Virus record (IMG/VR): IMGVR_UViG_3300044974_000825
Location: 1 to 64,000 of that record
DNA: 64,000 nt
Strand: one strand, 5' to 3'
Source of the DNA: a virus
A program made the position numbers and the translations under genes. Shown here in pieces: positions 16,221 through 62,769 of this stretch. The notes beneath the pieces were generated by a model. That model saw only the letters and a program-made list of their open reading frames with translations, had not been told where the DNA came from and ran no database searches. Each line of letters opens with the position of its first letter. Position 1 is the stretch's first letter.

Positions 16221-16454
16221 TTATTTAACCATATCAAAGTTAATCATATTCTCTGACATTAATTCACGAAGTTCATTTCTTATTTCCTGATATGCGTCAT
16301 ACTTGTCCTGTGGTAAATCATCGGAAGCATATTTAGTTTTCGCTCTCAATGATTGGTCCAAATCCCAAAGTATTGACCACATCTTCATTCCTTTAGTTGC
16401 CAAGTCGAAATCTTGTTGGTCCTCAGGTAAATTAAATTCTAAAACAGCTTTCAT
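16221..16454 (-). CDS. conserved small phage protein, 77 aa
   Basis: The start at 16454 gives MKAVLEFNLPEDQQDFDLA, with SILWDLDQSLRAKTKYAS in the middle, a pattern common in short proteins of large phages. Function unknown. The longer upstream frame is rejected because it runs through the neighbouring gene. Confidence 0.75.
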   Translation of the reverse strand: MKAVLEFNLPEDQQDFDLATKGMKMWSILWDLDQSLRAKTKYASDDLPQDKYDAYQEIRNELRELMSENMINFDMVK

Positions 16455-16632
16455 TTTTTTTCTCTTTATATTTTTTACATCTCTTTTTTGGTACTTCAAC
16501 GTAATATGAACCCATAAACGATGAGAATACACCAACGTAGTTGGACCCAACCTCTTTTACATCATGGAGCACTGAACCCTCAAAAAGGTTGAAGAAGATG
16601 TCAGTACAGTCTTTTTTTGTTACAACTTTCAT
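16432..16632 (-). CDS. hypothetical small protein, 66 aa
   Basis: The ATG at 16632 is fixed by a TATATTTG box ending 4 nt upstream; an earlier in-frame codon lies within that promoter. The product (MKVVTKKDCTDIFFNLFEGS...) has a basic C-terminus. It overlaps the following gene start by 23 nt. No family recognised. Confidence 0.65.
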   Translation of the reverse strand: MKVVTKKDCTDIFFNLFEGSVLHDVKEVGSNYVGVFSSFMGSYYVEVPKKRCKKYKEKKNESCFRI

Positions 16633-16644
16633 ATTACAAATATA
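16633..16644 (-). promoter_or_regulatory. Bacteroidota -7 box, leaderless start
   Basis: TATATTTG-TAAT-ATG on the minus strand. Confidence 0.65.
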
Positions 16645-16671
16645 CACAATTTTATTTAATTTTTCTAATGT

Positions 16672-16744
16672 GACCCCGCCGAGATTCGAACTCGGGACTC
16701 CTTCATTAAAAGTGAAGTGCTCTAGCCAACTGAGCTACGAAGTC
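16672..16744 (-). tRNA. tRNA-Lys(UUU)
   Basis: Anticodon arm CTTCA-CTTTTAA-TGAAG; acceptor GACTTCG/CGGGGTC with two G-U pairs. Confidence 0.92.
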
Positions 16745-16751
16745 TTATTGT

Positions 16752-16823
16752 GGTAACGGTCAGAATCGAACTGACGACACCTTGGTCTTCAGCCAAGTGC
16801 TCTACCAACTGAGCTACATCACC
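16752..16823 (-). tRNA. tRNA-Phe(GAA)
   Basis: Anticodon arm CTTGG-CTGAAGA-CCAAG; canonical T-arm. Confidence 0.92.
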
Positions 16824-16829
16824 ATTTGT

Positions 16830-16901
16830 AGTCCCTGTAGGAATCGAACCTACGACATCTTGCATGTAAAACAAGCGCTCTCCCAACTGAGCTAAAGGAC
16901 T
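16830..16901 (-). tRNA. tRNA-Val(UAC)
   Basis: Anticodon arm CTTGT-TTTACAT-GCAAG; acceptor AGTCCTT/AGGGACT. Confidence 0.92.
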
Positions 16902-16907
16902 GTTTGT

Positions 16908-16980
16908 ACTCCGTACGGGGCTCGAACCCGTAATCTTCACCGTGAAAGGGTGACGACTTAACCAATTTGTCCAACGGAGC
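16908..16980 (-). tRNA. tRNA-Glu(UUC)
   Basis: Anticodon arm TCACC-CTTTCAC-GGTGA; acceptor GCTCCGT/ACGGAGT. Confidence 0.92.
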
Positions 16981-17040
16981 AATTATTCAACAAAAATACG
17001 ACCAATAAATCAAAGAACCAAAAAACATCAAAATAAAAAA

Positions 17041-17068
17041 CCCCGAACCTTTTTACGAGTTCGGGGTA
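17041..17068. terminator. terminator hairpin
   Basis: CCCCGAAC/GTTCGGGG with flanking A/T runs, downstream of the minus-strand 32-codon ORF. Confidence 0.75.
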
Positions 17069-17100
17069 TATAAAAAATTTAGTTTATTAATCTAAAAAAA

Positions 17101-17199
17101 TTATCCTATTTTGACATCCGAACTACATAATAGCATACGCTCATACCAACAAATCGATTGTTGTGTACTAAAGACCATATGTTTAAATGTAGTTTTCAT
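17101..17199 (-). CDS. 32-aa small ORF
   Basis: ATG to TAA, 32 residues beginning MKTTFKHMVFSTQQSICW. A TATCTTTG box lies 18 nt before the ATG and a strong terminator follows 33 nt after the stop, making a self-contained cassette. No family recognised; translation unproven. Confidence 0.4.
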   Translation of the reverse strand: MKTTFKHMVFSTQQSICWYERMLLCSSDVKIG

Positions 17200-17217
17200 T
17201 GTTTCTTATATATAGTA

Positions 17218-17225
17218 CAAAGATA
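17218..17225 (-). promoter_or_regulatory. Bacteroidota -7 box
   Basis: TATCTTTG upstream of the 32-codon ORF. Confidence 0.5.
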
Positions 17226-17261
17226 CAAAAAAATCTTTGGGTGTCAAATATTTTTTTTAAC

Positions 17262-17268
17262 TATTTAT
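17262..17268 (+). promoter_or_regulatory. candidate late-promoter box TATTTAT
   Basis: 5 nt before the ATG at 17274. Confidence 0.45.
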
Positions 17269-17273
17269 AAAAG

Positions 17274-17693
17274 ATGAAAACATTGAGACAAATCATTAAG
17301 GAAGAATTATTACTTGAAAAAAGAATCACTCAAGTTAATTCGTCTTTAGAAGTAGTATTCCTATTTGACGTAAACAGGACCACTCACGCCTTTGATAGAG
17401 ACACAAGAGATGATATTGAAGGGTATAATGTAAGACCGATTGTTAACGCTGAAATTAGAGAGATTATCAGTACAGTAAAAAAAGATATTGCCGAAAAAAT
17501 AGTTTCAAGGGAAATTAACCCTGAAGTAGATTTTGTTGTAAAGTCCTTAAAATGGGAATTAGCCATGGCAATAACTCCTGTTCATATTGGAGGAACTTAT
17601 TGGCAATTAATTATCAAAACAGTATTCAGAGAATCCAAATACAACCCTTTTAGAGTGGGTGAAAACCAATTGGTGATTTACTCAGACATTTAA
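17274..17693 (+). CDS. hypothetical phage protein with LRQIIKEEL leader, 139 aa
   Basis: The N-terminus MKTLRQIIKEELLLEKR is the short basic/acidic amphipathic leader that recurs on virion-associated phage proteins. The rest has a charged central helix (about 55-80) and a beta-rich C-terminus. No family recognised. It follows a TATTTAT box and converges on the small RNA gene at 17694. Confidence 0.65.
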   Translation: MKTLRQIIKEELLLEKRITQVNSSLEVVFLFDVNRTTHAFDRDTRDDIEGYNVRPIVNAEIREIISTVKKDIAEKIVSREINPEVDFVVKSLKWELAMAITPVHIGGTYWQLIIKTVFRESKYNPFRVGENQLVIYSDI

Positions 17694-17785
17694 AAAAAAA
17701 AAGGGTAACACTAGTATCTGAATCGTTCCCGTGTTACCCAGTTTGTAATTGAGCTTGTGTATCTAAATCGTGCTCCTCAATCACA
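17694..17785 (-). ncRNA. small RNA with twin identical loop motifs
   Basis: On the minus strand a TATCTTTG box (17789-17796) predicts a start near 17784. The RNA of about 90 nt has hairpin 1 closed by ATTGAG/CTCAAT (17776-17781, 17748-17753) and hairpin 2 closed by GGGTAACAC/GTGTTACCC (17731-17739, 17703-17711), then a run of about ten U. Both loops display ACGATTYAGATAC (17759-17771 and 17714-17726). Hairpin 2 doubles as terminator. No ORF. Looks like an independently transcribed sRNA. Confidence 0.65.
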
Positions 17786-17788
17786 ATA

Positions 17789-17796
17789 CAAAGATA
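17789..17796 (-). promoter_or_regulatory. Bacteroidota -7 box for the small RNA
   Basis: TATCTTTG about 5 nt upstream of the predicted RNA start. Confidence 0.6.
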
Positions 17797-17823
17797 CAAA
17801 AATATTTCGTACCACAAAAAATA

Positions 17824-18534
17824 TTATCCCTGAATATTAAAATTAATCACACATCTGTGAGTTTTTCCGTAAAAAGGTTTAACCGAATGAACAATATCGT
17901 AAGGCCAAATTATTAACATCCCTTTCTTTGGTCTAATAAAGTAAGACATTCCCCTAACGTGAAATGTAAATACCCCACTATATGGATGGTCATCAACTGG
18001 GTCTCCGTCAGATAGATAATAACCACCAGAAAAGTTTAAAGTTGTTTCTTCATTTGGTTGCCATCTACAATGATTATGAGCGTTATGTCCACGACCTTCA
18101 GTTGGATTATAATATTGCATCCAACTCTCAGTAATCATTGGTTTTCTGTTGTGTTCAAATCCAAGTTTGTCCAGCATCTCCATATAACCCAATTCTACCC
18201 TTTTTTTAATTTTCTTAACACATTCCTCATCTATATTAAGAAAATCGTTTGGCGGGGTCCAAAATCGACTACCAATGGGGTTATGTTCCGTTGGTTCCAC
18301 CCACATGTCTTGCCTATTGTAGTTTACTTGATATGTAGATTGTCTTTGTTCGTCGTATTGTTCTGGTAACTCTTGACCCATCAATTTTTGTTGGTCGGTT
18401 AGAGCATTAAAACCAAAATTATAAACTTCGTCTTGAAGTTCGTCATCTGTGAATACTTTCATAAACACAGGAATAGGTGCAAGATGAAAAAGATTCTCCT
18501 GACTTGTTTTAACTAATGGATTTTTTACGTACAT
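17824..18534 (-). CDS. putative 2-oxoglutarate/Fe(II) oxygenase
   Basis: The 236-residue protein has the C-terminal half of a cupin-fold oxygenase: MQYYNPTEGRGHNAHNHCRW, a sheet core, then LIIWPYDIVHSVKPF and HRCVINFNIQG. The distal histidine (DIVHSV) and the arginine that would bind 2-oxoglutarate (HRCVINF) are visible. The proximal ligand pair is probably in the HNAHNH segment. Similar proteins occur in marine phages. The substrate is unknown; a nucleic acid, peptide or small molecule are all possible. Two more oxygenase-like genes lie at 32816 and 33852. Confidence 0.65.
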   Translation of the reverse strand: MYVKNPLVKTSQENLFHLAPIPVFMKVFTDDELQDEVYNFGFNALTDQQKLMGQELPEQYDEQRQSTYQVNYNRQDMWVEPTEHNPIGSRFWTPPNDFLNIDEECVKKIKKRVELGYMEMLDKLGFEHNRKPMITESWMQYYNPTEGRGHNAHNHCRWQPNEETTLNFSGGYYLSDGDPVDDHPYSGVFTFHVRGMSYFIRPKKGMLIIWPYDIVHSVKPFYGKTHRCVINFNIQG

Positions 18535-18548
18535 AATTTAAATCTTGT

Positions 18549-18628
18549 ACCCCAAGAGAGACTCGAACTCTCACGACCGAAGTCATTGGTTCCTAAGACC
18601 AACGCGGCTACCGTTACGCCATCGGGGT
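18549..18628 (-). tRNA. tRNA-Leu(UAG)
   Basis: Anticodon arm TTGGT-CTTAGGA-ACCAA, long variable arm, acceptor ACCCCGA/TTGGGGT. Confidence 0.93.
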
Positions 18629-18631
18629 GTG

Positions 18632-18723
18632 TCATTATCGCTTCAGCCACATCGGGAAAGGCGCCTCTCCCGCGTTGTTTAAGTGTGTAACTTGCGCCGT
18701 ATCTCACTGAGGTACGATAATGA
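18632..18723 (-). ncRNA. structured non-tRNA element in the tRNA array (B)
   Basis: Perfect 9-nt arms TCATTATCG (18632-18640) and CGATAATGA (18715-18723) enclose a D-arm-like GTACCTCAGTGAGATAC, the motif GGCGCAAGT and a GGGAGAGGCGCCTTTCCC hairpin. It is tRNA-sized (92 nt) but has no T-loop. It sits between tRNA-Leu and tRNA-Arg. Confidence 0.45.
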
Positions 18724-18727
18724 TTGT

Positions 18728-18800
<73 letters not shown>

Positions 18801-18805
18801 ATTGT

Positions 18806-18890
18806 ACCGAGGGAGGGACTCGAACCCTCACGGCCGTTTACTGACCAAGGGATTTTAAGTCCCTCGTGGCTACCATTACACCACCTCGGC
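18806..18890 (-). tRNA. tRNA-Leu(UAA)
   Basis: Anticodon arm AGGGA-CTTAAAA-TCCCT, long variable arm, acceptor GCCGAGG/CCTCGGT. Confidence 0.93.
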
Positions 18891-18899
18891 ATTGTCTTA

Positions 18900-18907
18900 C
18901 AAATATA
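18900..18907 (-). promoter_or_regulatory. Bacteroidota -7 box for tRNA genes
   Basis: TATATTTG about 9 nt before the 5' end of tRNA-Leu(UAA). Confidence 0.55.
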
Positions 18908-18934
18908 ACCTTTATGGAATCATAAATCAAAAAA

Positions 18935-18965
18935 AACCCCAAACTTTTTTTTTAGTTTGGGGTCC
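18935..18965. terminator. terminator hairpin
   Basis: CCCCAAAC/GTTTGGGG with A/T runs, after the 243-aa gene on the minus strand. Confidence 0.75.
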
Positions 18966-18989
18966 TATTATATAAAGTTATTACCTTTT

Positions 18990-19721
18990 TTATTGAGCAT
19001 CAAACTCTTCTTCCCATAACGTATCAGAAGAATTTTCTTCTGTATTATAAGTGTGATTTAATTCAATTGTCATGTCATTGAAATTAAATACGAACTCTCC
19101 GTCTGACCCTTCATTAATTTCCCAACCACCATAATGACTTTCAAGTTGATTATAACACCAATCTTCAATTGTTGACGGAACTGAATCACCATTTTCTTCA
19201 AATGAACTTTCAATATAACCAGAATCCCCCGAACCATTATATCTTAGAGTTAATATTCCATCTTGTGGAATTTCTAAATCAGATAGAACCCCATCTTTTT
19301 CCCATTCTTCAAAAATTTCTTGACCTTCTTCTTCTGACCATTCAGTCCCACTAGCGTCTCCTCTATCATACCAAGACCAATAATGGTTAAATGAAATGTC
19401 TTTGTTTGCAGAATTAATACTAATCTCAAACTTTTGCCATGACATCGCATCAATATCTGGTGTCTCACTACTATATAATTCTTGGTCAGACGCATACTTC
19501 GTAATTTTTTGAAGTATCGGTATCAACCCTGACGGAACGTCCGCTCTCCAGTTATTGGAGAAATGTGTCATTTGATTCCAATCTATATTATTATAGTTAA
19601 GTGTATCACCATAATCATCCATCTCGAATTCAAACTCACCGACTTCCATTCCGAGAGAGCTCAAATAATTACAAACTCTTCTCAGGTATTGTTTTTCTTC
19701 TGTTGTTAAAAGTTTTTCCAT
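18990..19721 (-). CDS. acidic hypothetical protein, 243 aa
   Basis: Strongly acidic protein with an N-terminal helix (TTEEKQYLRRVCNYLSSLG) and a C-terminal block with LTLRYNGSGDSGYIESSF, SVPSTIEDWCYNQLESHYGGWEIN and GEFVFNFND. This looks like a conserved phage protein of unknown function. It starts 4 nt after a TATTTAT box and is followed by a terminator. Confidence 0.7.
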   Translation of the reverse strand: MEKLLTTEEKQYLRRVCNYLSSLGMEVGEFEFEMDDYGDTLNYNNIDWNQMTHFSNNWRADVPSGLIPILQKITKYASDQELYSSETPDIDAMSWQKFEISINSANKDISFNHYWSWYDRGDASGTEWSEEEGQEIFEEWEKDGVLSDLEIPQDGILTLRYNGSGDSGYIESSFEENGDSVPSTIEDWCYNQLESHYGGWEINEGSDGEFVFNFNDMTIELNHTYNTEENSSDTLWEEEFDAQ

Positions 19722-19725
19722 ATAA

Positions 19726-19732
19726 ATAAATA
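19726..19732 (-). promoter_or_regulatory. candidate late-promoter box TATTTAT
   Basis: 4 nt before the ATG of the 243-aa gene. Confidence 0.4.
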
Positions 19733-20086
19733 TCAGTCTTCAAACTCTAATTTCATTGTTTTTAACATCCATTGGGGTCTTTGATTTGACGAGATGTTAC
19801 TAATCCACTCTTTGGCTGAAGGTATGTAATTATTACAATCTTCTTTTACGTGTTGTTCTCCAACATATCGGGTATAAACTGTTTTTCCGTCTGAGTTTAA
19901 GAACTCAGTTCCAAATCTTTTTTCCATTTCAAAAATTCCTTCACTATGATGTCTAAACATTCTATGAAGAGAATCTCCAAACCAAGATTTGGTTTCATCT
20001 AACCATTCATGTAAATGAATGTAATCCTCAGGTTTTCCTCCAAACTTTTTGGCGGATGATTTTGCATGTAAATTTGGATGTGCCAT
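19733..20086 (-). CDS. DUF6915-like phage protein
   Basis: The 117-residue protein has HPNLHAKSSAKKFGGKPEDYIHLHEWLDETK, then MFRHHSEGIFEMEKRFG, NSDGKTVYTRYVGEQHVKEDC and a final IPSAKEWI. This is a conserved His-rich phage family, DUF6915 by my recollection, of unknown function. The histidines suggest metal binding. It lies within the tRNA region on the same strand. Confidence 0.75.
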   Translation of the reverse strand: MAHPNLHAKSSAKKFGGKPEDYIHLHEWLDETKSWFGDSLHRMFRHHSEGIFEMEKRFGTEFLNSDGKTVYTRYVGEQHVKEDCNNYIPSAKEWISNISSNQRPQWMLKTMKLEFED

Positions 20087-20088
20087 GA

Positions 20089-20322
20089 TTATTTAATTTG
20101 TGAGTTGTTTCTTCTTGCTTCCTCAGCTTCTTTGTAAACCCTAACCCATGTTAAAAATACATCAATAGGTGCTAAAATCCAACACATAATAATTAACGCC
20201 ATACTCTCAAGACCTGGAGATATTCCAAGACCACCTGACATAACATCTCTGTTCCATTTTCTAATTGACATGATTACGCAGTAAATGAAACAAACAACGT
20301 AATACGACCAAAATAATTGCAT
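20089..20322 (-). CDS. small membrane protein, 77 aa
   Basis: The ATG at 20322 is chosen because longer frames run into the tRNA-Ala gene. Two hydrophobic segments are visible (about 2-18 and 36-58), with a charged C-terminal tail (KEAEEARRNN). No family recognised. Confidence 0.6.
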   Translation of the reverse strand: MQLFWSYYVVCFIYCVIMSIRKWNRDVMSGGLGISPGLESMALIIMCWILAPIDVFLTWVRVYKEAEEARRNNSQIK

Positions 20323-20338
20323 AAATAAAAGTTTTAGT

Positions 20339-20410
20339 GGAGAATGAGGGAATCGAACCCACGACAACTTGAATGCAAATCAAGCGCTCTACCAACTGAG
20401 CTAATTCCCC
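20339..20410 (-). tRNA. tRNA-Ala(UGC)
   Basis: Anticodon arm CTTGA-TTTGCAT-TCAAG; acceptor GGGGAAT/ATTCTCC. Confidence 0.93.
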
Positions 20411-20417
20411 TGTTTGA

Positions 20418-20489
20418 GCCTCCTGTCGGAATCGAACCAACGACCTACTGATTACAAATCAGTTGCTCTACCTGCTGAGCTAAGGAGGC
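20418..20489 (-). tRNA. tRNA-Thr(UGU)
   Basis: Perfect acceptor GCCTCCT/AGGAGGC; anticodon arm ACTGA-TTTGTAA-TCAGT. Confidence 0.94.
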
Positions 20490-20491
20490 AT

Positions 20492-20532
20492 TTGTGGGTG
20501 TATGCTCATCACATACTCATGGGTTCCCACAA
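20492..20532. other. spacer hairpin between tRNAs
   Basis: TTGTGGG/CCCACAA arms enclose a nested GTATG/CATAC. No T run, so a processing hairpin is more likely than a terminator. Confidence 0.4.
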
Positions 20533-20540
20533 CCCGTTGA

Positions 20541-20612
20541 GCGGAAGACCAGGCTCGAACTGGCCACCCCCGACTTGGAAGGACGGTGCTCTACCAAATG
20601 AGCTACTTCCGC
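20541..20612 (-). tRNA. tRNA-Gly(UCC)
   Basis: Acceptor GCGGAAG/CTTCCGC perfect; anticodon loop CTTCCAA, one mismatch in its stem. Confidence 0.9.
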
Positions 20613-20621
20613 AATTTTGGC

Positions 20622-20693
20622 GGTCCCGACGGGATTCGAACCCGTATCTCGCACCGTGACAGGGTGGAATTGTAACCATTCAACCACGGGACC
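20622..20693 (-). tRNA. tRNA-Asp(GUC)
   Basis: Acceptor GGTCCCG/CGGGACC; anticodon loop CTGTCAC. Confidence 0.92.
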
Positions 20694-20721
20694 GTGTGTG
20701 GGGAGTTTCACCCCAAACTTT

Positions 20722-21213
20722 TTAATTTGTTAAGATGTGTTGATGTTCTCCGATTACTCGTTTTAAACTACTAACATATCTCTTATCAGACGCATATACC
20801 CTTCCGAGTAGTGCAAGATACTGATTTTTTGTCAAATCGTCTTTACCTTTTAACATATAATCTTGCCATAAAAAGTAATCATATACGCTAAGGTTCCAAT
20901 CTGTATATTTTGAGTATCCGCTCTGAGTTTTACCAACTGAAGACGTTTCTCTTTTTGTTGGAACTCTCATTCCAAACAGATTGTTTGCCGTTTTGAACAA
21001 TTTTGATGTAAATGCTCCTGACTCTAACACAGCTTGTGCAAACACAATATCAGGAAATTTTATACCAAACTTAATTATCTGCTCGTACAATTCTTCTTTT
21101 GTCAACCTATCATCTTGTGTCTGATAAGTTGTTTGTACTTGCTTCTCTTGTGCTTTTGTTGTCATTGTTCCTAACAATAACAACACAGTCAATAAGAATG
21201 TTTTTAACTTCAT
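20722..21213 (-). CDS. secreted glucosaminidase-family peptidoglycan hydrolase
   Basis: The 163-residue protein has a signal peptide (MKLKTFLLTVLLLLGTMTTKAQ) and a GH73-type glucosaminidase domain: FAQAVLESGAF with the catalytic glutamate, then NNLFGMR, SVYDYFLWQDYML and YASDKRYVSSLKRVI. Such enzymes cut the glycan backbone of peptidoglycan. With a Sec signal it can reach the periplasm without a holin, so it may help lysis or envelope remodelling alongside the GH19 endolysin at 52358. It sits among tRNA genes. Confidence 0.85.
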   Translation of the reverse strand: MKLKTFLLTVLLLLGTMTTKAQEKQVQTTYQTQDDRLTKEELYEQIIKFGIKFPDIVFAQAVLESGAFTSKLFKTANNLFGMRVPTKRETSSVGKTQSGYSKYTDWNLSVYDYFLWQDYMLKGKDDLTKNQYLALLGRVYASDKRYVSSLKRVIGEHQHILTN

Positions 21214-21294
21214 TTCTTTCTTTTTGTCTGTTTATGCTTCAGGATTACTCCATCCACGATACCACAACATTGGAAATTTTCCACCCACCTCAGC

Positions 21295-21365
21295 TGCTCC
21301 ACCTGGGCTCGAACCAGGATAAAAGGATTAACAGTCCTCCGTAATAACCATTATACGATAGAGCA
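21295..21365 (-). tRNA. tRNA-Asn(GUU)
   Basis: Acceptor TGCTCTA/TGGAGCA; loop CTGTTAA. Confidence 0.9.
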
Positions 21366-21403
21366 AAATTATAATCAAATTTTCCAACAAAGGAAACTTT
21401 TGT

Positions 21404-21476
21404 CGGGATGGCTGGATTCGAACCAACGGCCTCCACGTCCCAAACGTGGCGCGATACCTGACTACGCTACATCCCG
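21404..21476 (-). tRNA. tRNA-Pro(UGG)
   Basis: Acceptor CGGGATG/CATCCCG; anticodon arm CCACG-TTTGGGA-CGTGG. Confidence 0.93.
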
Positions 21477-21484
21477 TACATAAA

Positions 21485-21513
21485 AAAACCCTGAAGTATT
21501 AGTTCAGGGTTTA
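21485..21513 (-). terminator. terminator after the 32-aa ORF
   Basis: AAACCCTGAA/TTCAGGGTTT hairpin; the T run follows on the minus strand. Confidence 0.75.
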
Positions 21514-21534
21514 GATAATTGGCTATAATATTGT

Positions 21535-21633
21535 TTACCAACCACTCGCTTCTGAACTTACGCAAATAGTGCCCGCATCCCCATTAGGAGTTGTCGGTGT
21601 GTCTAAATTCGTATTTGTGTTCATAGTTTTCAT
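21535..21633 (-). CDS. 32-aa small ORF
   Basis: ATG to TAA, beginning MKTMNTNTNLDTPTTPNGDAG and ending EASGW. A terminator follows within 25 nt. The 3' half shares GCGTAAGT and AGCGAGTGGTTG with structured element A (15083-15182). Translation unproven. Confidence 0.4.
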   Translation of the reverse strand: MKTMNTNTNLDTPTTPNGDAGTICVSSEASGW

Positions 21634-21678
21634 AGTGCAATATTACAATAAATATATTTAAAAACCAAAAAATAAATA

Positions 21679-22461
21679 TTAGTTACTAAAACCTCTCAAA
21701 TAAACATCATTTGTCATATTGAAATTAATCCTCATTGATGAGTTTGGATAAGTACTATAAACTCTATATTGACCCTGTGGAATTACATTCCCTGTATAAT
21801 TAATCAAGTATGATGACAACTGAGTATTTGTGTTCAACACTGTTTGACTATTGTTAGCACTTGACACTATTCTTGTACCGTTTTTCGCATAATAACCAAT
21901 TCTAGTTTGTCTTTTTGTATCATTATTCATTGCCGAGACAGGAATCAAAACTAAAACCCAAGCGTTATCATTAACAGTATTTTTAGATATTTTTACTGTT
22001 GTAAAATTATATGCCATTTTAGGGTTACCGTGTTCATCAACTCCACCACTTACTTGTGGTATGTCAGCCTGAATAACTTGTGGTAACACACCATTAGTCC
22101 AAAATGGCATGTTTAAATAATTGTTTAAATCTCGGTAATTGGTATTTTGAATACTCACCATTGTCCAACAAGAGTAAAATGGAACGCTTGTAGATTGTGG
22201 GTTTCTTGGAACTGAGTTTTTAAGGTAATTAACAATTAATGTTGTTTTAGCTTGCTTTTCAATAAAAACATACGCCTTCAAATTAGGTGTTGAACTTGTC
22301 GTAACCCTTAAATTAGGGTTCGTACTTGAAGTTGAGTTAAGTTCTTGGGATTGCTCAATTTTAGTTTTTTCGAAGTCTACTCCAGTGATGTCTTCTTTAG
22401 AACAAGACACAACAAATACCGATAAGGTAAGGAATGATAATAATAATTGTTTGATTTTCAT
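21679..22461 (-). CDS. lipoprotein, 260 aa
   Basis: A lipoprotein signal peptide ends in FVVSC followed by SKED, so the protein is probably lipidated and exported. The mature part has a Ser/Thr/Asn-rich linker (about 35-60) and a beta-rich domain with WTMVSIQNTNYRDLNNYL and a C-terminal YRVYSTYPNSSMRINFNM. No family recognised. Phage lipoproteins often block superinfection; nothing here proves that. Confidence 0.75.
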   Translation of the reverse strand: MKIKQLLLSFLTLSVFVVSCSKEDITGVDFEKTKIEQSQELNSTSSTNPNLRVTTSSTPNLKAYVFIEKQAKTTLIVNYLKNSVPRNPQSTSVPFYSCWTMVSIQNTNYRDLNNYLNMPFWTNGVLPQVIQADIPQVSGGVDEHGNPKMAYNFTTVKISKNTVNDNAWVLVLIPVSAMNNDTKRQTRIGYYAKNGTRIVSSANNSQTVLNTNTQLSSYLINYTGNVIPQGQYRVYSTYPNSSMRINFNMTNDVYLRGFSN

Positions 22462-22471
22462 GATTGTTTGT

Positions 22472-22753
22472 TTAAATGTATTTTTTAAAAATTGTTTCTA
22501 AGGTGTCTTCATCTTCCCTACTTATAACATGAAATTTTTGAGATAACTTATCCATTTTCTCTAAAAATTCATCTTCTAAAATAGATGTTTTTGGTTTACC
22601 ATTTTTATCAGTTTGTATTTGAGACAACACTGATTTAGGTAAATGGTTTTCTTCAACTAACCCTTCAATTAATTCTTTAATTTCTCTTGGGTCACAGGCC
22701 GTAACAAATTCATACGGGTCAATGTCGATTTCTTCTACACAAAATTCAGGCAT
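22472..22753 (-). CDS. conserved small phage protein, 93 aa
   Basis: Begins MPEFCVEEIDIDPYEFVTACDPREIKELIEGLVEE, a pattern I know from several phages as a short acidic protein of unknown function. The C-terminal half has a FLEKMDKLSQKF helix. It is upstream of the lipoprotein gene on the same strand, with 10 nt between them. Confidence 0.7.
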   Translation of the reverse strand: MPEFCVEEIDIDPYEFVTACDPREIKELIEGLVEENHLPKSVLSQIQTDKNGKPKTSILEDEFLEKMDKLSQKFHVISREDEDTLETIFKKYI

Positions 22754-22779
22754 AATTATTTTTTTTTTAATAGTTTAGT

Positions 22780-22852
22780 GGACCAGCCTGGGCTCGAACC
22801 AGGGACCTTCACATTATGAGTGTGTTGCTCTAACCAACTGAGCTACAAGTCC
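22780..22852 (-). tRNA. tRNA-Met/Ile2(CAU)
   Basis: Acceptor GGACTTG/CTGGTCC with one mismatch, loop CTCATAA. Whether it is elongator Met or lysidine-modified Ile cannot be told by eye. Confidence 0.88.
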
Positions 22853-44503: not shown

Positions 44504-45124
44504 ATGGAGTTTTTAATTACAGAATCACAACTTAAAAAAATATTAACTGAACAGGAAAGGTCCAGAATGGATGGGTATATGAAACAATTAAACTCATTCA
44601 CAAAACAAATTGTCAATAGAGTTCTTAAATCTTACGGTTTGAACTTAAGAATGTTATTAACATGGGGTACTTCTGTTGGTGGTATGGTTTTACCTTTGGA
44701 CCGTTATCTTAGGACAGGTAATTTTGATTTAACTGACAATCAAAGGATGTTAGTTTTGGCGGGAATTGCGTTTACTCTTTTCTTTGAGACTAAAAGTCCT
44801 TTAAGTAAATTATTAAAATTAATTAAAGAAGAGGGTCTTTCTGATGTTTATAAAGTTGGACTTAACAAGGGTAAACAACTTAAAGAATCTTTTTTGAATT
44901 TTATGAGTTCTGTGAATGTAAGCACTGGTAGTTTTATGGATACCGTGGCTTATAGTTTTTTAATACCTATAATTACAGACATACAAGAAGCGGCAATGAG
45001 TGGTGGAGACCCAAAAGAAACCGCGATTATGATTGCTCAAAGATTATCCGCATCGGGTGTGGTTATAATTGGAAGTCAGGTTTTATCAAGAACTATTAAG
45101 AAAATTATAGATAGAATTAAGTAA
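44504..45124 (+). CDS. putative virion/membrane-active protein with leader
   Basis: The 206-residue protein starts with FLITESQLKKILTEQERSRMDGY, a leader of the kind found on other putative virion proteins. It has hydrophobic stretches (about 49-66, 85-100 and 140-165) and a basic C-terminus (RTIKKIIDRIK). No family recognised. It converges with the minus-strand gene ending at 45117. Confidence 0.65.
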   Translation: MEFLITESQLKKILTEQERSRMDGYMKQLNSFTKQIVNRVLKSYGLNLRMLLTWGTSVGGMVLPLDRYLRTGNFDLTDNQRMLVLAGIAFTLFFETKSPLSKLLKLIKEEGLSDVYKVGLNKGKQLKESFLNFMSSVNVSTGSFMDTVAYSFLIPIITDIQEAAMSGGDPKETAIMIAQRLSASGVVIIGSQVLSRTIKKIIDRIK

Positions 45125-49922: not shown

Positions 49923-51023
49923 TTAAGGTTTTAATACAGCAACAACCTCGGGGTATTCTTTTTCTAAGACTTTTTTGTCTTTACCCTCATAAGGAATATT
50001 TTGTAAAATGTATCTAATGGCGTTTAATCCCGATATTCTTTTATCTTGTGAATCAATAATAACCCAAGGATTGTTAACTGTGGAGGTTTTATCAAAAAGT
50101 TTTTCTTTAAATTCTGTAAATCTATCCCATAGGTCTTGCATTTTTGAATCATTTGGAGAATATTTCCAATATTTTAATGGCGATTTTTGTCTGATGTCAA
50201 ATCTTCTTTTTTGAGTATCTTTTTCAATTGAAAACCATAACTTAAACAAATAATCTCCTTCTCTAACTAAATCGTTTTCAAAATTCTCAACGTTTTCCAT
50301 AAAGTCCTCATACTCTTCTGGTGACCCGTATCCCATAACAGGCTCAACTAAACCTCTGTTATACCAACTTCTATCAAAGAAATTAATCATTCCTGGTTTA
50401 ATTTCTCTTTTGTATCTTCCCCACCAATCTTTTCTATCTTCAGGACTTGGTATCCCTAAAGCAACCACATTGTAGTATCTTGGATTTAAATTTTCTGTAA
50501 ATTTCTTAATTGTAGAACCTTTACCTGCAGAATCCCTACCTTCAAAAACTATGATTACTGTTTTACCTGTTTTCTTTAACCATTCTTGTAATTTCAACAA
50601 TTCAACTTGAAGTTCAAACATTTCTTTTTTGTAAACTTTCTTTGGGACGATTGATGGTTCTTCGTCAAAGTCAAATTCATAATCTTCAGCGTCAGGTTCA
50701 ACACCATACCCTTTTTTTTCTCTAAATTTTAAAGAACTGATTATTTTACCAAAATAGTCTGATACGTTTCTTTTTTTGTCTCCCTTCTTAAGTAGAACTT
50801 TTCTAAGTCCTCTCTCTAACAATCCAAAATCAATAATTTGTTCTTTGGCTAAATTGGTAATTTCAATCAACATCCTCTCAATTGTCGGGTTATAGATTTT
50901 AAGATACCTTAAAGCCTCCACACTTTTTGATAAATTAATGTTAAGATGTTTTGGCGAATTTTTATCTTCGGTCATCACACCCATTACACTTTTGATTCTA
51001 TCTATCTCATTTAATAACTGCAT
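49923..51023 (-). CDS. PPK2-type polyphosphate kinase with leader extension
   Basis: The C-terminal 230 residues are a complete PPK2: Walker A GRDSAGKGSTIKKF, YNVVALGIPSPEDRKDWW, then GRYKREIKPGMINFFDRSWYNRGLVEPVMG and a basic lid (KRRFDIRQKSPLKYWKYS). PPK2 regenerates NTPs from NDPs using polyphosphate. The first 130 residues are extra and begin QLLNEIDRIKSVMGVMTEDKN, close to the leader of the annexin-like protein. A leader on a metabolic enzyme suggests it is packed into virions. The start is 19 nt after a TATTTAT box. Confidence 0.9.
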   Translation of the reverse strand: MQLLNEIDRIKSVMGVMTEDKNSPKHLNINLSKSVEALRYLKIYNPTIERMLIEITNLAKEQIIDFGLLERGLRKVLLKKGDKKRNVSDYFGKIISSLKFREKKGYGVEPDAEDYEFDFDEEPSIVPKKVYKKEMFELQVELLKLQEWLKKTGKTVIIVFEGRDSAGKGSTIKKFTENLNPRYYNVVALGIPSPEDRKDWWGRYKREIKPGMINFFDRSWYNRGLVEPVMGYGSPEEYEDFMENVENFENDLVREGDYLFKLWFSIEKDTQKRRFDIRQKSPLKYWKYSPNDSKMQDLWDRFTEFKEKLFDKTSTVNNPWVIIDSQDKRISGLNAIRYILQNIPYEGKDKKVLEKEYPEVVAVLKP

Positions 51024-51159: not shown

Positions 51160-52278
51160 ATGAAAAATTTATCAAAGGAAGAGCTATTAAGTAGAATTGA
51201 GGCAATTAATAGAAGTAATGCAATAATATATTTTGACCTAAATGGTTTTATTTTAGGGGTTAATCCCATTTTCTTAAAGACCATGGGATATTCGGAGAAT
51301 GAACATGAAAAAGTTATAGGCCAGCATCATAGTATTTTTGTTTCACCTGAAGTTGTAAAGTCGGATGATTACAAGGAGTTTTGGAAAAAACTATCAGAGG
51401 GAAAGTTCTACGAGGGAGAGTTCGAAAGAATAAAATCAGATGGTAGTATTATTTATCTTCAAGCAACCTATAACCCAATAATTAATGAAGATGGTACAGT
51501 TACAAAGATAATGAAAATTGCTACCGATATTACTACAACTGTAATAGCTAAAAATGAAATCGGGGCCGTGGGTAGAAGTAACGCTATCATCTATTTTGAT
51601 TGTGACGGTTACATACTTGGAGCAAATTCTATTTTTTTAAAGGCGATGGGGTTCGATGAAAAAGATGAAAAAAGAATTATTGGTAAACACCATAGTATTT
51701 TTGTAAGTCATGAGTATTCAAAATCGGAGGAATATAAAGAATTTTGGGTAAAACTGAATAGTGGAAAGTTTTTCGAAGGGGAATTCGAAAGAAGAAAACT
51801 AGATGGTTCTCCAATCTTTTTGAAAGCAACCTACAATCCAATACTTAATAACGACGGTATTTGTAAAAAAGTAATGAAAATTGCTAATGATATTACCGAG
51901 ACTGTTGTTAGTAAGAATAAAATAGATGAACTTTCAAAAAATTTACAAACAGAATTAGATAATTCAAACAAACTTCGTATGTCAATCGAGCTTGAGAAAA
52001 ACGCAGCGTTAGAGGACTTAGATGCTACAATCAAAAAAAGTCAAAACCAATTGATAGGAACTATTGTTAAATCAGCTCTGTTTGTAATTATGAGTGTTGG
52101 ATTTATTACCACTATAATGTACTCATTTGCAATACTGTCGAATAAAGATACACAAATAATTGGCTCAACGTGGAGTAATATGTTCAGTGTCTTACTCACA
52201 AACGCGTTCTCCATCGTAGGTACGATTATGGGTATCAAATACGCTACCTCAGATGATAAAAAAAATAAATTAGAATAA
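51160..52278 (+). CDS. tandem-PAS membrane protein, possible sensory holin
   Basis: Two closely similar PAS domains (about 17-125 and 137-245) share NAIIYFDxxGxILGxNxIFLK, IGxHHSIFVS and GxFxEGEFERxKxDGSxIxLxATYNPI. This is the type found in Aer/BdlA-like redox or oxygen sensors. A coiled coil (about 250-300) and two membrane helices (about 305-327 and 338-360) follow, with a short basic tail. There is no kinase, methyl-accepting or GGDEF output. The gene ends 79 nt before the GH19 endolysin gene on the same strand. The membrane part is of holin size. Confidence 0.8.
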   Translation: MKNLSKEELLSRIEAINRSNAIIYFDLNGFILGVNPIFLKTMGYSENEHEKVIGQHHSIFVSPEVVKSDDYKEFWKKLSEGKFYEGEFERIKSDGSIIYLQATYNPIINEDGTVTKIMKIATDITTTVIAKNEIGAVGRSNAIIYFDCDGYILGANSIFLKAMGFDEKDEKRIIGKHHSIFVSHEYSKSEEYKEFWVKLNSGKFFEGEFERRKLDGSPIFLKATYNPILNNDGICKKVMKIANDITETVVSKNKIDELSKNLQTELDNSNKLRMSIELEKNAALEDLDATIKKSQNQLIGTIVKSALFVIMSVGFITTIMYSFAILSNKDTQIIGSTWSNMFSVLLTNAFSIVGTIMGIKYATSDDKKNKLE

Positions 52279-52330
52279 AGTATTTTTTTTAGAGAAACAT
52301 ACTCTCATCTTACTCCCCATAATTAAAGAA

Positions 52331-52337
52331 TATTTAT
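52331..52337 (+). promoter_or_regulatory. candidate late-promoter box TATTTAT
   Basis: 20 nt before the ATG of the endolysin gene at 52358. Confidence 0.4.
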
Positions 52338-52357
52338 AGTAATAAAAATAAATTACT

Positions 52358-53200
52358 ATGATACTAAAAGTTGGGTCTAAAGGAGAAGACGTAAAAAAAC
52401 TCCAACAGAAATTAGGATTAGGTGCCGATGGAATTTTCGGTACAGGAACTGAAGCTGCGGTAAAAAAATGGCAAGCAGCTAACGGATTAACGGCTGATGG
52501 AATTGTAGGAGAAGGTACATGGGGTAAAATGTTTAGTTCAGGTCAACAATTAATTACTGAACCATCAACTCCGTCCACACCTATTAAATCAGTTGGTAAT
52601 CTTAAATTAGAAAACCTTAAGGGGCATATTCCTGAGGCGGTAATTGCACAAATCCCTGATACCGCAGCAAAGTTTGAATTAAACACTCCATTAAGATTGG
52701 CACACTTCTTAGCTCAGTGTGGGCATGAAAGTGGCGGATTCAAAGCAACTCAAGAGAACTTAAACTATTCGGCGAGTGGTCTTAAAGGTATTTTTGGTAA
52801 GTACTTTAAAGAAGCTGGATTAGCGGAATCATACCAAAGAAATCCTCAAAAAATTGCAAGTAGAGTTTATGGTGGAAGAATGGGTAACGGACCTGAATCT
52901 ACAGGTGAAGGTTACAAATTCAGAGGTAGAGGGTATATTCAGTTAACTGGTAAAGATAATTACACCGCGTTTGGTAAAGCAATAAATGAAGATATGACGG
53001 CATCTCCTGATAAAGTTGCAACACATTATCCATTATTATCAGCAGCATGGTTCTTTACAAAAAATGGTTTACATAAACTTGCAGACCAAGGGTCAACTGA
53101 TGCGGTTGTTACACAAATTACAAAAAGAGTTAACGGTGGTACAATCGGATTGGCAGATAGAATCAAACATTTTAAAGAATATTATCATTTACTTGCGTAA
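52358..53200 (+). CDS. endolysin: peptidoglycan-binding plus GH19
   Basis: An N-terminal PG_binding_1 domain (about 1-62: KVGSKGEDVKKLQQKLGLGADGIFGTGTEAAVKKWQ) and a linker are followed by a GH19 lysozyme/chitinase-type domain (about 85-280) with RLAHFLAQCGHESGGFKATQENLNYS, the catalytic glutamate in GHESGGF, and FRGRGYIQLTGKDNYTAFG. It cuts peptidoglycan glycan chains at lysis. No signal peptide, so release needs a holin; the neighbouring PAS-TM protein or the 58657 gene are candidates. Confidence 0.92.
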   Translation: MILKVGSKGEDVKKLQQKLGLGADGIFGTGTEAAVKKWQAANGLTADGIVGEGTWGKMFSSGQQLITEPSTPSTPIKSVGNLKLENLKGHIPEAVIAQIPDTAAKFELNTPLRLAHFLAQCGHESGGFKATQENLNYSASGLKGIFGKYFKEAGLAESYQRNPQKIASRVYGGRMGNGPESTGEGYKFRGRGYIQLTGKDNYTAFGKAINEDMTASPDKVATHYPLLSAAWFFTKNGLHKLADQGSTDAVVTQITKRVNGGTIGLADRIKHFKEYYHLLA

Positions 53201-58656: not shown

Positions 58657-58908
58657 TTACTCTTCAGTACTGTCAGATTTTCCTTTGTTAATCCATTTGT
58701 CAATGGAACCGATTCCAAAAGACCCAAGAACTAACCATAGGAACGCGTTAAAGATGAACTCGTTAATTACAAGGTCTTTTCCTAAAGAACCTGTTACGAT
58801 GTCTGCAATTGCAAACCCTGTCATCATTACAAAAGCTAAAAATCCAACGACACTTTTTTCGTTGATTGCGTTGTTGTCGTTAAACAACTGTGAGAAAAAT
58901 TTTTTCAT
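58657..58908 (-). CDS. two-helix membrane protein, holin-like
   Basis: The ATG at 58908 gives 83 residues with helices at about 18-38 (VVGFLAFVMMTGFAIADIV) and 48-68 (FIFNAFLWLVLGSFGIGSI), a short loop and a charged tail (NKGKSDSTEE). The class-II-like topology, size and place next to the fibre gene fit a holin. No direct evidence of function. It follows a TATTTAT box 23 nt upstream. Confidence 0.6.
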   Translation of the reverse strand: MKKFFSQLFNDNNAINEKSVVGFLAFVMMTGFAIADIVTGSLGKDLVINEFIFNAFLWLVLGSFGIGSIDKWINKGKSDSTEE

Positions 58909-58931
58909 AGTATTTGGTAATTTACTTACCA

Positions 58932-58938
58932 ATAAATA
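58932..58938 (-). promoter_or_regulatory. candidate late-promoter box TATTTAT
   Basis: 23 nt before the ATG at 58908; a GGTAAGTAAATTACC inverted repeat lies between. Confidence 0.35.
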
Positions 58939-58965: not shown

Positions 58966-61900
58966 TTAAAATGGTTCATCACTTGTTTGTGTCACACCAT
59001 TATTGTTTGTTACAGTTTGTGTTCCTGAACTATCAGTTGTTACCACAGCACCCAACATCAAATATTGAGTGTTTGCTAACGATGTAAGAGGTCCTCTTGG
59101 TGTTGATTGAGTTGTTTGAGTTGAATCATATACTGCAGTTCCAATTGTCATTCTCATATTAGTCCAATAACCTGGCCAATATCCACCGTAGAATCTACCA
59201 ATAGTGTCAGTTGCAGTGGTATAATTTAATGTATCAGATTGTGTACCACCTGCTCTAACTCCATCAATATACACCGCAGTAGTTCCATCTGCATTTCTAT
59301 TGTAAATCAAATAGTGCCAAACGTTGGCACTAATTGCTGATGATGTTACGTAACTAAACGAACCACCTCCACCATTTCTGTCCGAAGTTATTGTTGTACC
59401 ATTAGCAAAATATAAATTCAAACATCCTGTAGGACTAGTAACTGGAGAACCTACTATTCCCTTATCAACAAAAAGGTCATTATTATAAAACCATCCTTCC
59501 AACGTAAATGCACCCGCTCCAAAAGTTACTCCAGGACTTAAACTTAATGATTGATTGGTACCATTGAATAGTAAACTACCCGCTAATGTTTGGAATGGTG
59601 TAGGACTTGGAGTTTGTGTTAATGTTGGTGTAGGTGTTGGTGTTGATGAAGTCCTTGTAGGTGTTGGTGTTAATGTTGGTGTAACTGATGATGTTTGAGT
59701 ATTAGTTACACTTGGCGTAGGTGTACTTGTATTTGTTGGTGTTGCCGTAGGTGTTGGTGTTACTAATGAAGCCTCACAATCATCACAGTTAAAATAGAAA
59801 GTTAGTGGTGCTCCTGTATCTGTTGGGGTAGCAACAATCTTATTGACAATTCTGTAACATCCACTTGGAGTTGCTCCTGTAAATGTCATGTTGTATATAT
59901 CGCCAGCAGCGAATGCTCCTGGTCCTAAATCAGCGACTAATACATTCAAAGTAGTACATCCTGAAATTGTGTAAGTTGTGGTTGTTCCGTCAATACAATC
60001 GGCACAATTAGGATAGGAAGATATTGGGTTACCACCATCTGTAGGTGTTGCGTTGATTTTATTGATAATTGTGTAACATTCAGTTGCAGTCGCTCCTGTA
60101 AAGTCCAAATAGAATGTATCACCAGGGAAAAATGCTCCTGGTCCTAAATCAGCAACAATCACATTTGAACTACTACATCCTGAGATGGTGTAAGTGGTAA
60201 TCGCACTTAAATCAGTTGGAGTTGGTGTAACCGTTGGAGTTGGAGTCGGAGAAGGAAACTCAATATAAATTCCAAATCCATCCTCCTGTAAAATCATAAA
60301 GTAATCCTCTTGTAATAAGAAATTATTGTCGGGTAAGGTTGGTGTTGGAGTTGGTGTTTGGGTTGGCGTTTCTGTTTGAGTTGTTGTAGGTGTATTTGTA
60401 ATCGTTTCAGTCGGTGTTTGACTTGGTGTTGGAGTTGTTGTCTCTGTTGGAGTATTTGTTGGTGTTTCCGAAGGAGTATTGGTTGGCGTTTCCGTAGGAG
60501 TGCTTGTCATAGTTTCCGTGGGGGTATTGGTTGGGGTTTCGCTTGGTGTCTGTGTAGGGGTTGGTGTTTCGGTTGATGTGGCAGTTTGAGTGGGTGTCGA
60601 TGTTTCAGTAGCTGTTGGTGTTTGTCCAGGACTTGCTGTTATCGACGGAGTTGGTGTGTTTGTTGGTGTTTCTGAAGGTGTGTTGGTAGGCGTTTCCGTT
60701 TGTGTTGGTGTGTTTGTTGGAGTTTCTGAAGGTGTGTTTGTTGGAGTTTCTGAAGGTGTGTTTGTTGGAGTTTCTGAAGGTGTGTTTGTTGGAGTTTCTG
60801 AAGGTGTCTCAGTTGGCGTCTGCGTAGGAGTTTCACTTGGTGTAGGTGTGTTTGTTGGGGTTTCGGTTGGAGTAGAAGTTTGTGTTGGAGTCGGAGTAGG
60901 TAAAATAATCACAAAACAATCAGGACATGAAGGGTCCAACAAATTATATTTGTTTTTCAAAATCCGGAAATTATGACCTATTTGTCCCGCATTGAGAGGT
61001 TCAGTATACATCCTGAAAGCACTGATGTCTCCAATCATACTTCCACCGAATATCTCCTCCAATCTTATATGGGTTGTTAGACCTGAGTAAATTGTGTTAT
61101 TCAATGTCTCAGTTGTCAAACATTCAGGGTCTTGTTGATAAACAATGTCATCAATTTCAGCAGGACAACCACCCGAAAAAGTTAAGTTATCATGTAATCC
61201 TTGCGTACCACCACCCAAAGAAATGTTATAGCTAACACCAACTTGTTTTTCCTTTGGAGTATTCAACAATCTTGGTATAATCTCTTCAAAATTCTCCGCC
61301 ACCATAAAGAGTCTACCGTTTACGTAGAACTTCATAGTTCCTAATCTATATTTTTCTTCTAATGTCCAATTATCGTTAAAAGTAACAATCTCGGTGGTCG
61401 CTGGGTCATAATCTTTTTCATGGGTTATAGGTGGGAGAACTAAATTTACTGAGTTGTTCGCGGAAGTGGCAGTATAAACGTCTTCAACAATTAAACCAAG
61501 CCCACCCTTGTCATACAAGTCGCAAGTATCAAACCATTCATATCTTTGAAAAACAGCATCAATTTGAACCCAATGCTCCAAATCAATATAAGTTGTATTT
61601 TTACAATCGTCGAATATACCTCTCGTAGAACACCATTCGGAAACTGTTGTTCCTGTAACATACGTAAGACCGGTAGAACATACACCAGTGGTTTCACAAG
61701 CACCTGTAATTCGATATGTTTTAACACATAATCTTGGATTACCTGTATCGCCACTCAATCTCAGTGATAAAGCATTTGAAACCCCGTCATAGAGTGGGTC
61801 TGTCTCAGGAAATTCCGCATATGACGTACATTGACAAGGACCACAACAAGAACAATTCGATAAGGTGCCACCTGATGGTTGATACACTTGATAACACGAA

Positions 61901-62769
61901 TGTTCGGCGGTTAGTCCTGTCAACAAACATTCACATGTATGCATACATGTGAGACCTGAGGTTACTCTTGTGTAACCTGTGTCTTGAACGGGATGTCCAT
62001 CCGCATAATGGTAAAACTTGTTTTCTGCTCGGGCTCCCATGTAAAAGAACGTACCTTTATTATTTGGATATCTAGCATTTAGTCCAACTGAGGTATCCCC
62101 TGACCACCTATATCTCAACATGAATTCTGCTGTCCAACCTAAACTAACCCTCTGAGGAAAAATTTGATAGTCATAACCAGGAATTTTATAAAACCCTTGG
62201 AAAAATCCTCCATTAAGTTTTGCGAAGTACCCAACGGCATCATTATAAGTGTCCCAACCTAAATTATAGTCATAGGAACCATCATCCCAAAGTCTGTTTG
62301 ATGAGGTTGTAAACCCAGTAATAGGATGCATTTTCATTCTCCTATCATATTTGTATCTACTAAATTTGTCAGATAGATTAGTGTATAAACCAGTTGTAAT
62401 TTCTATGGTTTCCCCTGACATTCTTTTCACCAATCCATTATCAATCCCTGTTAAACCAACATTACATAATTCAGTTACAATAGGACAATAATTTGGGTCA
62501 GTATCTGTTGGGTTCCAATAATTTTCTGAGACGATTACATCATTATCAAAATTACAAGGAGAAAATTGACAGAGTGTTGTTCCTGTGGAATTGAAGTCGA
62601 ACCTGAATGGCATCCTATTACCATCATCTTCTCCAATTAATAACGGGGAAAAAATCACCTCTTGGTCGTAGCTTTTCTCGTCGGAAGCCAAGCATAAGTC
62701 AGTGATTTCGTTAAGGAATATCAGACCGAGTCTTCTATAATTATATTGATTGATGTTTTGATAAGACAT
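58966..62769 (-). CDS. tail fibre/adhesin with mucin-like repeats and LamG-type tip
   Basis: The 1267-residue protein has an N-terminal region of about 640 residues, rich in Cys (CxxC and CCxxC clusters) and Thr/Gly. This is followed by a T/P/S/E-rich stalk (about 645-850) of imperfect 8-residue repeats of the type TPTNTPSE. Two 70-residue beta repeats then begin YTISGC(S/T)xxNV(I/L)VADLGPGAF, separated by short linkers, followed by a second T/P-rich linker. The C-terminal 155 residues are a LamG/concanavalin-like domain ([34 protein letters not shown]). It most likely binds the host surface. It starts 9 nt after a TATTTAT box. Confidence 0.82.
60654..60866. repeat. coding minisatellite in the fibre stalk
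   Basis: A 24-nt unit (GTTTGTTGGAGTTTCTGAAG plus GTGT) is repeated nearly perfectly at 60706-60800 and in degenerate form on both sides. It encodes TPTNTPSE. Perfect units next to degenerate ones suggest recent slippage or copy-number change. Confidence 0.8.

Follow-up and report, generated by a model that had tools for sequence, protein, structure and literature searches.

In the 64,000-nt stretch of viral DNA analysed here (the window), we identified a gene whose predicted product joins two PAS domains, a coiled coil and a C-terminal hairpin of two transmembrane (TM) helices, and which lies directly ahead of a GH19 endolysin gene. Comparison of its relatives in other viral contigs strongly supports a tie between this protein, hereafter PAS-2TM, and lysis. 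With modest confidence we lean towards reading it as a sensor-driven accessory regulator of lysis timing, one that would act on a separate holin-like membrane protein such as the small proteins that we call D0.

Architecture of the PAS-2TM protein

The window is part of a 64,283-base virus record in IMG/VR, which is possibly a fragment, and contains the following features:

51160..52278, plus strand: gene for the PAS-PAS-coiled coil-2TM protein, 372 aa (ORF call, Pfam, hydropathy, AlphaFold2)
51220..51531, plus strand: PAS domain 1, residues 21-124; H57 and W75 unchanged throughout the 72-sequence alignment
51583..51894, plus strand: PAS domain 2, residues 142-245; H178 and W196 unchanged throughout the 72-sequence alignment
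51895..52050, plus strand: signalling helix or coiled coil, residues 246-297, which AlphaFold2 models as running on into TM1
52051..52131, plus strand: TM1, residues 298-324 (hydropathy, AlphaFold2, conservation analysis)
52132..52170, plus strand: short loop, residues 325-337, poor in K/R and predicted to be periplasmic
52171..52248, plus strand: TM2, residues 338-363; 99.6% mean pairwise identity among 42 tandem-PAS representatives
52358..53200, plus strand: endolysin with PG_binding_1 and GH19 domains, 280 aa (Pfam, PHROGs)
58657..58932, minus strand: D0, small two-TM protein, putatively holin-like, 91 aa (HMM E 7.8e-36)

A first-pass annotation made from the sequence had described tandem PAS domains, a coiled coil and two C-terminal TM helices, and Pfam, hydropathy and AlphaFold2 agreed on this layout. 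Pfam matched PAS_3 (1.1e-21) and PAS_9 (5.7e-21), each over two stretches of the protein, and found no kinase, methyl-accepting (MCP), HAMP or GGDEF domain, in agreement with the annotation's statement that kinase, methyl-accepting and GGDEF outputs are absent. Hydropathy placed two TM segments with starts near residues 298 and 341 and detected no hydrophobic segment ahead of the PAS domains. The AlphaFold2 model (mean pLDDT 78, pTM 0.42) comprised two PAS folds, an 82-residue helix (246-327) in which the coiled coil passes into TM1, and a further helix (331-363), so that the suggested structural check of the hairpin returned two helices, with TM1 at the end of the long one; residues 331-337 of the loop listed above already belong to the second helix in this model. 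No Pfam, PHROG or NCBIfam model described the whole protein, and PHROGs gave weak matches only, with phrog_1544 (unknown function) aligning to residues 262-370 (E 0.008). The gap from the PAS stop codon to the endolysin start was recomputed at the 79 nt originally given, and Pfam and PHROGs bore out the assignment of the downstream gene.

Family, conservation and gene neighbourhood

Viral contigs contained 229 relatives when eight close relatives served as queries and 469 when the C-terminal hairpin did; the best 80 of 229 and the best 80 of 469 were examined, so that the loci described here are the best-scoring 80 per scan and not all 469, and many of them are related to each other. The first sample comprised 152 loci, or 134 contigs after removal of 18 repeats of the same contig; for the second, drawn with divergent queries, 104 loci were reduced to 43 by setting aside 61 that shared an identical 300-nt core with a locus counted before. 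The full architecture recurred in other contigs at about 60-100% identity and is thus not a product of chance. Of the 134 contigs, 84 encoded tandem-PAS proteins of about 370 aa, and the remaining 50 mostly encoded single-PAS proteins of about 250 aa, no fewer than three being cut by the contig end; the hairpin is common to both forms by construction, having been the query. No sensor domain other than tandem or single PAS was found on the hairpin in the 152 first-sample or the 43 second-sample loci. Each of 12 records searched held one PAS-2TM match, and a later search returned a second, weak one in a single record (28% over 67 residues).

Beyond these contigs, a scan of 84,980 bacterial and archaeal species (one genome each) for exact matches to short peptide patterns, which distant forms could escape, gave 46 pattern-matching stretches, none of them a relative of the hairpin. 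Among 50,697 phage records we found neither a match to the hairpin (tblastn, E up to 1) nor a full-length PAS-2TM relative. The best PAS matches in that set, MT836939.1 (L230) and OR848229.1 (L231; L numbers denote loci), encode chemotaxis-receptor-like proteins, and because their products read as such, these entries, filed as phages, are probably misfiled bacterial contigs. When the 134 contigs were grouped by shared-gene background, 13 groups resulted, a lower bound only, because single linkage joined 104 of the contigs; Terminase_6N, which is uninformative for fragments, was present in 3 of 20 carrier records.

Conservation is strongest in TM2. Across 42 tandem-PAS representatives of less than 95% identity, mean pairwise identity was 0.76 (PAS1), 0.70 (PAS2), 0.68 (coiled coil), 0.73 (TM1), 0.996 (TM2) and 0.40 (tail), while 50-57% of fourfold-degenerate sites differed throughout PAS1, PAS2, the coiled coil, TM1 and TM2. 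That TM2 is 99.6% identical while 55% of its own fourfold sites differ argues for selection and not for recent transfer, and this near-invariance despite silent-site variation makes the hairpin look like the working end of the protein instead of an anchor. The mean number of K/R residues in the 134 proteins was 3.9 before TM1, 0.8 in the loop and 3.5 in the tail; with K/R-rich ends and a K/R-poor loop, an N-in/C-in topology is predicted.

Neighbouring genes were called with a simple ORF caller, which weights minus-strand ORFs by 0.85 and hence slightly favours same-strand calls, and were then clustered. An endolysin gene lay within three genes of the PAS gene in 122 of the 134 contigs. By offset, the counts of endolysin genes were 2 at -4, 5 at -3, 6 at -2, 4 at -1, 73 at +1, 33 at +2 and 9 at +3, with none at -9 to -5 or +4 to +9, for each of which 35 to 100 genes were examined. 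The second sample had an endolysin within three genes in 35 of 43 loci and another holin-like gene within four in 33 of 43. The endolysins concerned belong to four sequence families, namely GH19, M15_3, GH24 (Phage_lysozyme) and a PG-binding protein in which no catalytic domain was recognised. All of the 217 endolysin and D0 genes that lay up to three genes away were encoded on the same strand as the PAS gene, a count to be read with the caller's slight same-strand preference in mind. Spacing was close as well: with proteins shorter than 200 aa excluded, PAS and D0 genes overlapped in 39 of 72 adjacent pairs, and the gap to the endolysin gene was at most 20 nt in 38 of 39 PAS-M15 and 16 of 27 PAS-GH19 pairs. 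The link to lysis, which the annotation had put forward as inference, is strongly supported by proximity, strand and spacing.

The commonest partner was D0, present within four genes of the PAS gene in 87 of the 134 contigs. This family, which merges two subfamilies, consists of small proteins (median 82 aa) with two TM segments in its representative. Phage_holin_4_1 proteins occurred near the PAS gene in 38 contigs, and one or the other stood within four genes in 102; the 32 contigs with neither count against a regulator. So does the finding that D0 corresponds to no curated family in Pfam, PHROGs or NCBIfam, and because it matches no curated holin family its role as a holin is putative. In the window, D0 lies 5.4 kb from the endolysin gene on the opposite strand, and in many other contigs it adjoins the PAS gene. 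Homology between the hairpin and D0 was rejected (hhalign probability 1.7%), and an AlphaFold2 model of D0 from one sequence (mean pLDDT 58) was too weak to use.

Homologues far from lysis genes, which the annotation had named as evidence against its reading, do exist, and most copies stay near such genes. Among the 12 first-sample contigs that had no endolysin within three genes, the PAS gene lies no more than two genes from a contig end in L203, L163, L137, L138 and L157, and D0 is present within three genes in L004, L145, L115, L156 and L137. Of the eight such loci in the second sample, three (L302, L295, L282) start where the contig is cut, and three (L301, L253, L257) contain D0, with a GH19 gene at +4 in L301; in L342 and L348, neither endolysin nor D0 was seen nearby. 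Copies away from known lysis genes are those of L127, L138 and L139, a single lineage in which the PAS gene sits among DNA-metabolism genes, of L158, where the GH19 gene is 9 kb away, of L348 and perhaps of L342.

Sensor domains and comparison with known systems

A profile search of the PDB with the 72 aligned sequences (E up to 0.001) returned five matches, to MmoS (4.5e-12), NifL (1.3e-6), Aer (4e-6), a histidine kinase identified as the NifL subunit in the NifL-NifA complex (7.7e-6) and Aer again (3.9e-5). MmoS, NifL and Aer are described as FAD sensors in PMC10468136 and PMC9668731. In PMC10468136, Trp, His and Asn residues are named for the clusters of FAD PAS domains, at least two of the three being conserved in each cluster; the flavin Asn (Aer N85) is conserved in two of three clusters, and a Trp on helix Fα is the primary determinant for FAD-binding PAS domains.

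PAS-2TM has the PAS fold of these redox sensors according to Pfam, AlphaFold2 and Foldseek. The Fα Trp (W75 and W196) and the flavin-stacking His (H57 and H178) are invariant in the 72 sequences, W196 corresponding to Aer W70, W75 to the Trp of NifL and MmoS, H178 to Aer H53 and H57 to the His of MmoS; PAS2 was aligned directly with Aer, and PAS1 with MmoS and NifL. At the position of the flavin-binding Asn the proteins carry R90 and R211, and Aer R57 and R115 are likewise not kept. A regular expression for the cofactor residues proved too strict (both PAS domains matched in 66 of 84 tandem proteins), and the 72-row alignment, from which 12 of 83 listed tandem proteins, mostly near-duplicates, had been left out, was used instead. 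Foldseek ranked the heme protein DosP first and MmoS second, so that the cofactor cannot be read from the fold by itself. The annotation's broad proposal of a redox, oxygen or ligand sensor can be narrowed in part: a redox-type sensor is the best match for the PAS domains and redox sensing is plausible, with the profile ranking and the retained His and Trp on its side, while the replaced Asn and the first place of heme-binding DosP speak against it.

Bacterial PAS relatives were found at 13 loci with at most 47% identity, and the outputs in the 10 checked were MCP (6), STAS (3) and GGDEF/EAL (1); in the phage proteins the hairpin occupies the position of these outputs. This sets PAS-2TM apart from Aer, MmoS and NifL, with which it shares the PAS fold, the best PDB profiles and the invariant positions of Aer H53 and W70: their HAMP, MCP or kinase outputs are absent, Pfam finding neither HAMP nor an MCP signalling domain, the hairpin is the only output, and the equivalents of Aer Asn85, Arg57 and Arg115 are missing. 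The Pseudomonas aeruginosa chemoreceptors BdlA and McpS likewise have two PAS domains in tandem, and we know of no hairpin of the PAS-2TM type in either. VqmA of phage VP882 is a known phage PAS receptor, and it is a transcription factor. For BdlA and McpS, PMC8694187 lists FAD binding by the PAS domains as a prediction; unlike PAS-2TM, both proteins carry a methyl-accepting domain.

Among lysis systems, the T4 holin T with its antiholins RI and RIII offers the likeness of a lysis regulator that answers to a cell condition and acts on a small membrane holin. RI differs in its periplasmic sensing of superinfecting DNA, in having no PAS domain and in its topology; in PAS-2TM, the PAS domains precede TM1 and the K/R pattern points to N-in, so that no periplasmic sensor domain is predicted. 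Class II holins such as S68 of phage 21 resemble PAS-2TM in their two TM helices, N-in/C-in orientation and a gene adjoining that for endolysin, the orientation in PAS-2TM being predicted and the endolysin lying within three genes at the frequencies given above; they are, however, small and sensor-free, and PAS-2TM matches no holin model. Among the best-ranked matches of literature searches confined to open-licence papers, none described a phage lysis cassette that includes a PAS protein.

A search for PAS-TM neighbours of endolysins in other Bacteroidota phages, as the annotation had suggested, led to a differently built protein in three cultured phages. In Cellulophaga phage phi14:2 (Crassvirales), the end of g078, a 'PAS fold protein', overlaps the start of the GH19 endolysin gene g077; g078 has one N-terminal TM segment, a coiled-coil-like stretch and a C-terminal PAS domain (PAS_4 E 1.1e-4, just under the curated cut-off). 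Its relatives in Chryseobacterium phages MA9V-1 and MA9V-2 (E 8e-11 and 9e-13) include gene 249 of MA9V-2 (PAS_4 1.3e-7), which follows a GH108 endolysin at a distance of two genes; the gene order is identical in MA9V-1, with a putative endolysin. The products of g078 and gene 249 resemble PAS-2TM in having a PAS domain, a membrane segment and a stretch like a coiled coil, and in being encoded next to or close to an endolysin, but their TM segment is N-terminal and their PAS domain C-terminal. Because the PAS-2TM hairpin has no match in the phage records, a sensor-like domain beside an endolysin may, by this comparison, have arisen more than once. In phi19:1 (E 6.5e-4) and phi18:3 (E 9.1e-3), BFVD gave weak fold matches to uncharacterised proteins, which judged by protein length should be gp108 and gp090; gp108 lies five genes before lysozyme gp113 and gp090 two before endolysin gp092, and Pfam detected no PAS domain in either.

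Regulator, pore or anchored sensor

As an accessory regulator, PAS-2TM would monitor redox or energy conditions in the host cytoplasm by means of FAD in its PAS domains. A conformational change in these domains could travel down the long helix and re-pack the hairpin in the inner membrane, which, by way of TM2, might restrain or trigger D0, or a Phage_holin_4_1 protein in other phages, and control of the holin-like protein would set the moment of endolysin release. The protein may be an antiholin or a trigger, its sequence being compatible with either.

The PAS gene seems dispensable for lysis in this lineage, since PAS-less relatives keep the endolysin and D0 and since L003 and L045 have an upstream gene and the endolysin in common, with the PAS gene between them in L003 only; this favours an accessory regulator. 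Indeed, among 18 records (43-326 kb, any of which may be a fragment) with this GH19 endolysin type, the PAS gene was present in 2 and a D0 match in 13 (three weak), and 12 of the 16 PAS-less records had a D0 match, three of these weak. In the cultured Flavobacterium phage vB_FspM_immuto_2-6A, nothing matches the PAS protein, and the gene for a D0 protein immediately precedes that for a 'putative chitinase' (the GH19 relative) and lies two genes before that for a 'holin'. Two further observations count against the regulator: in 77 PAS-less loci with the closest GH19 endolysins, D0 was within 1 kb in none and elsewhere in the locus in 21, and the 272-kb record L153 has the PAS gene and no D0 match.

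The annotation had instead cast the PAS protein as the pore itself. In this reading the hairpin would be a hole- or pinhole-forming unit in the style of class II holins, the PAS domains its gate, and D0 an antiholin or second holin. TM1 and TM2, the short loop and the K/R-rich ends do fit class II topology, the near-invariance of TM2 with silent sites as variable as elsewhere would suit a pore, and a polar face on TM2 is suggested, although not significantly (shuffle P 0.063). Moreover, 16 of the 134 contigs, some cut by a contig end, have no same-strand small TM gene within four genes, among them L001-L003 of the window's own lineage, where the PAS gene directly precedes the endolysin. Holins are usually shorter than 150 aa, and PAS-2TM, at about 250-372 aa, is far above that size; it matches no holin family in Pfam, PHROG or NCBIfam, is missing from related phages with the same endolysin type, and is accompanied by D0 or Phage_holin_4_1 in the 102 contigs counted above, with no homology between its hairpin and D0. 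We therefore regard a PAS-gated holin as unlikely.

Less probable still is a membrane-anchored sensor that takes no direct part in lysis, such as a decoy resembling Aer that disturbs host chemotaxis or redox signalling, for which the late operon would provide expression only. E. coli Aer likewise has its membrane anchor behind the PAS domain, the closest bacterial PAS relatives found belong to MCP, STAS and GGDEF/EAL proteins, and a few copies do lie away from lysis genes. A mere anchor is, however, not expected to be the most conserved part of a protein (TM2 99.6%, PAS domains 70-76%), endolysins of four sequence families are associated with the gene in many gene orders, and Pfam finds no signalling output domain.

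Known lysis clocks depend on holin accumulation and membrane potential and, in the T4 system, on superinfection. If the regulator reading is true, many phages would read host metabolism ahead of committing to lysis, through a widespread lysis-cassette protein with the kind of sensory domain that bacteria use for redox and oxygen, and lysis timing by host physiological state would become directly testable with one gene, one cofactor and one conserved helix. The boldest form of the idea, which we hold to be doubtful, is that one polypeptide combines a flavin PAS redox sensor with a holin and would lyse the host at a redox or respiratory threshold; phages of Bacteroidota would then have placed lysis under PAS control on two or more occasions, each time with another architecture.

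Several further features were recorded in the window and loci. The gene adjoining the PAS gene on its other side (49923-51023, minus strand) encodes a polyphosphate kinase 2 (PPK2, Pfam 3.6e-71); in 7 of 81 contigs, a member of its cluster (C13) lay no more than five genes from the PAS gene. Similar short leaders (ITESQLKKIL, LLNEIDRIKSVMG, LKELIKETL) stand at the gene starts 44504 (plus), 45857 (minus), 49919 (minus) and 51023 (minus), and also near the endolysin in L019-L027; they could be capsid-targeting or cleaved leaders, and a rough scan found the motif in 4 of 78 window genes of at least 80 aa. The 206-aa protein at 44504-45124 (plus strand) has a weak PHROG holin match (phrog_22127, E 0.0047). 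Near the PAS gene, L253 (88-718) and L257 (6264-6928) encode a one-TM-like protein with an ISFKEFxKDP motif followed by a small lipoprotein-like gene, which, read by eye, could be a spanin pair. The window also contains a complete tmRNA gene (2522-2944, plus strand; ARAGORN; Rfam RF00023, 98.6 bits), 23 tRNA genes at 14311-22852, and a gene (58966-62769, minus strand) for a 1267-aa protein with long low-complexity stretches rich in T/P/E/S and no Pfam match up to E 0.1. A late-promoter-like motif, TATTTATAG, precedes the endolysin gene and occurs four times in the window, a number reached in 5 of 100 shuffles.
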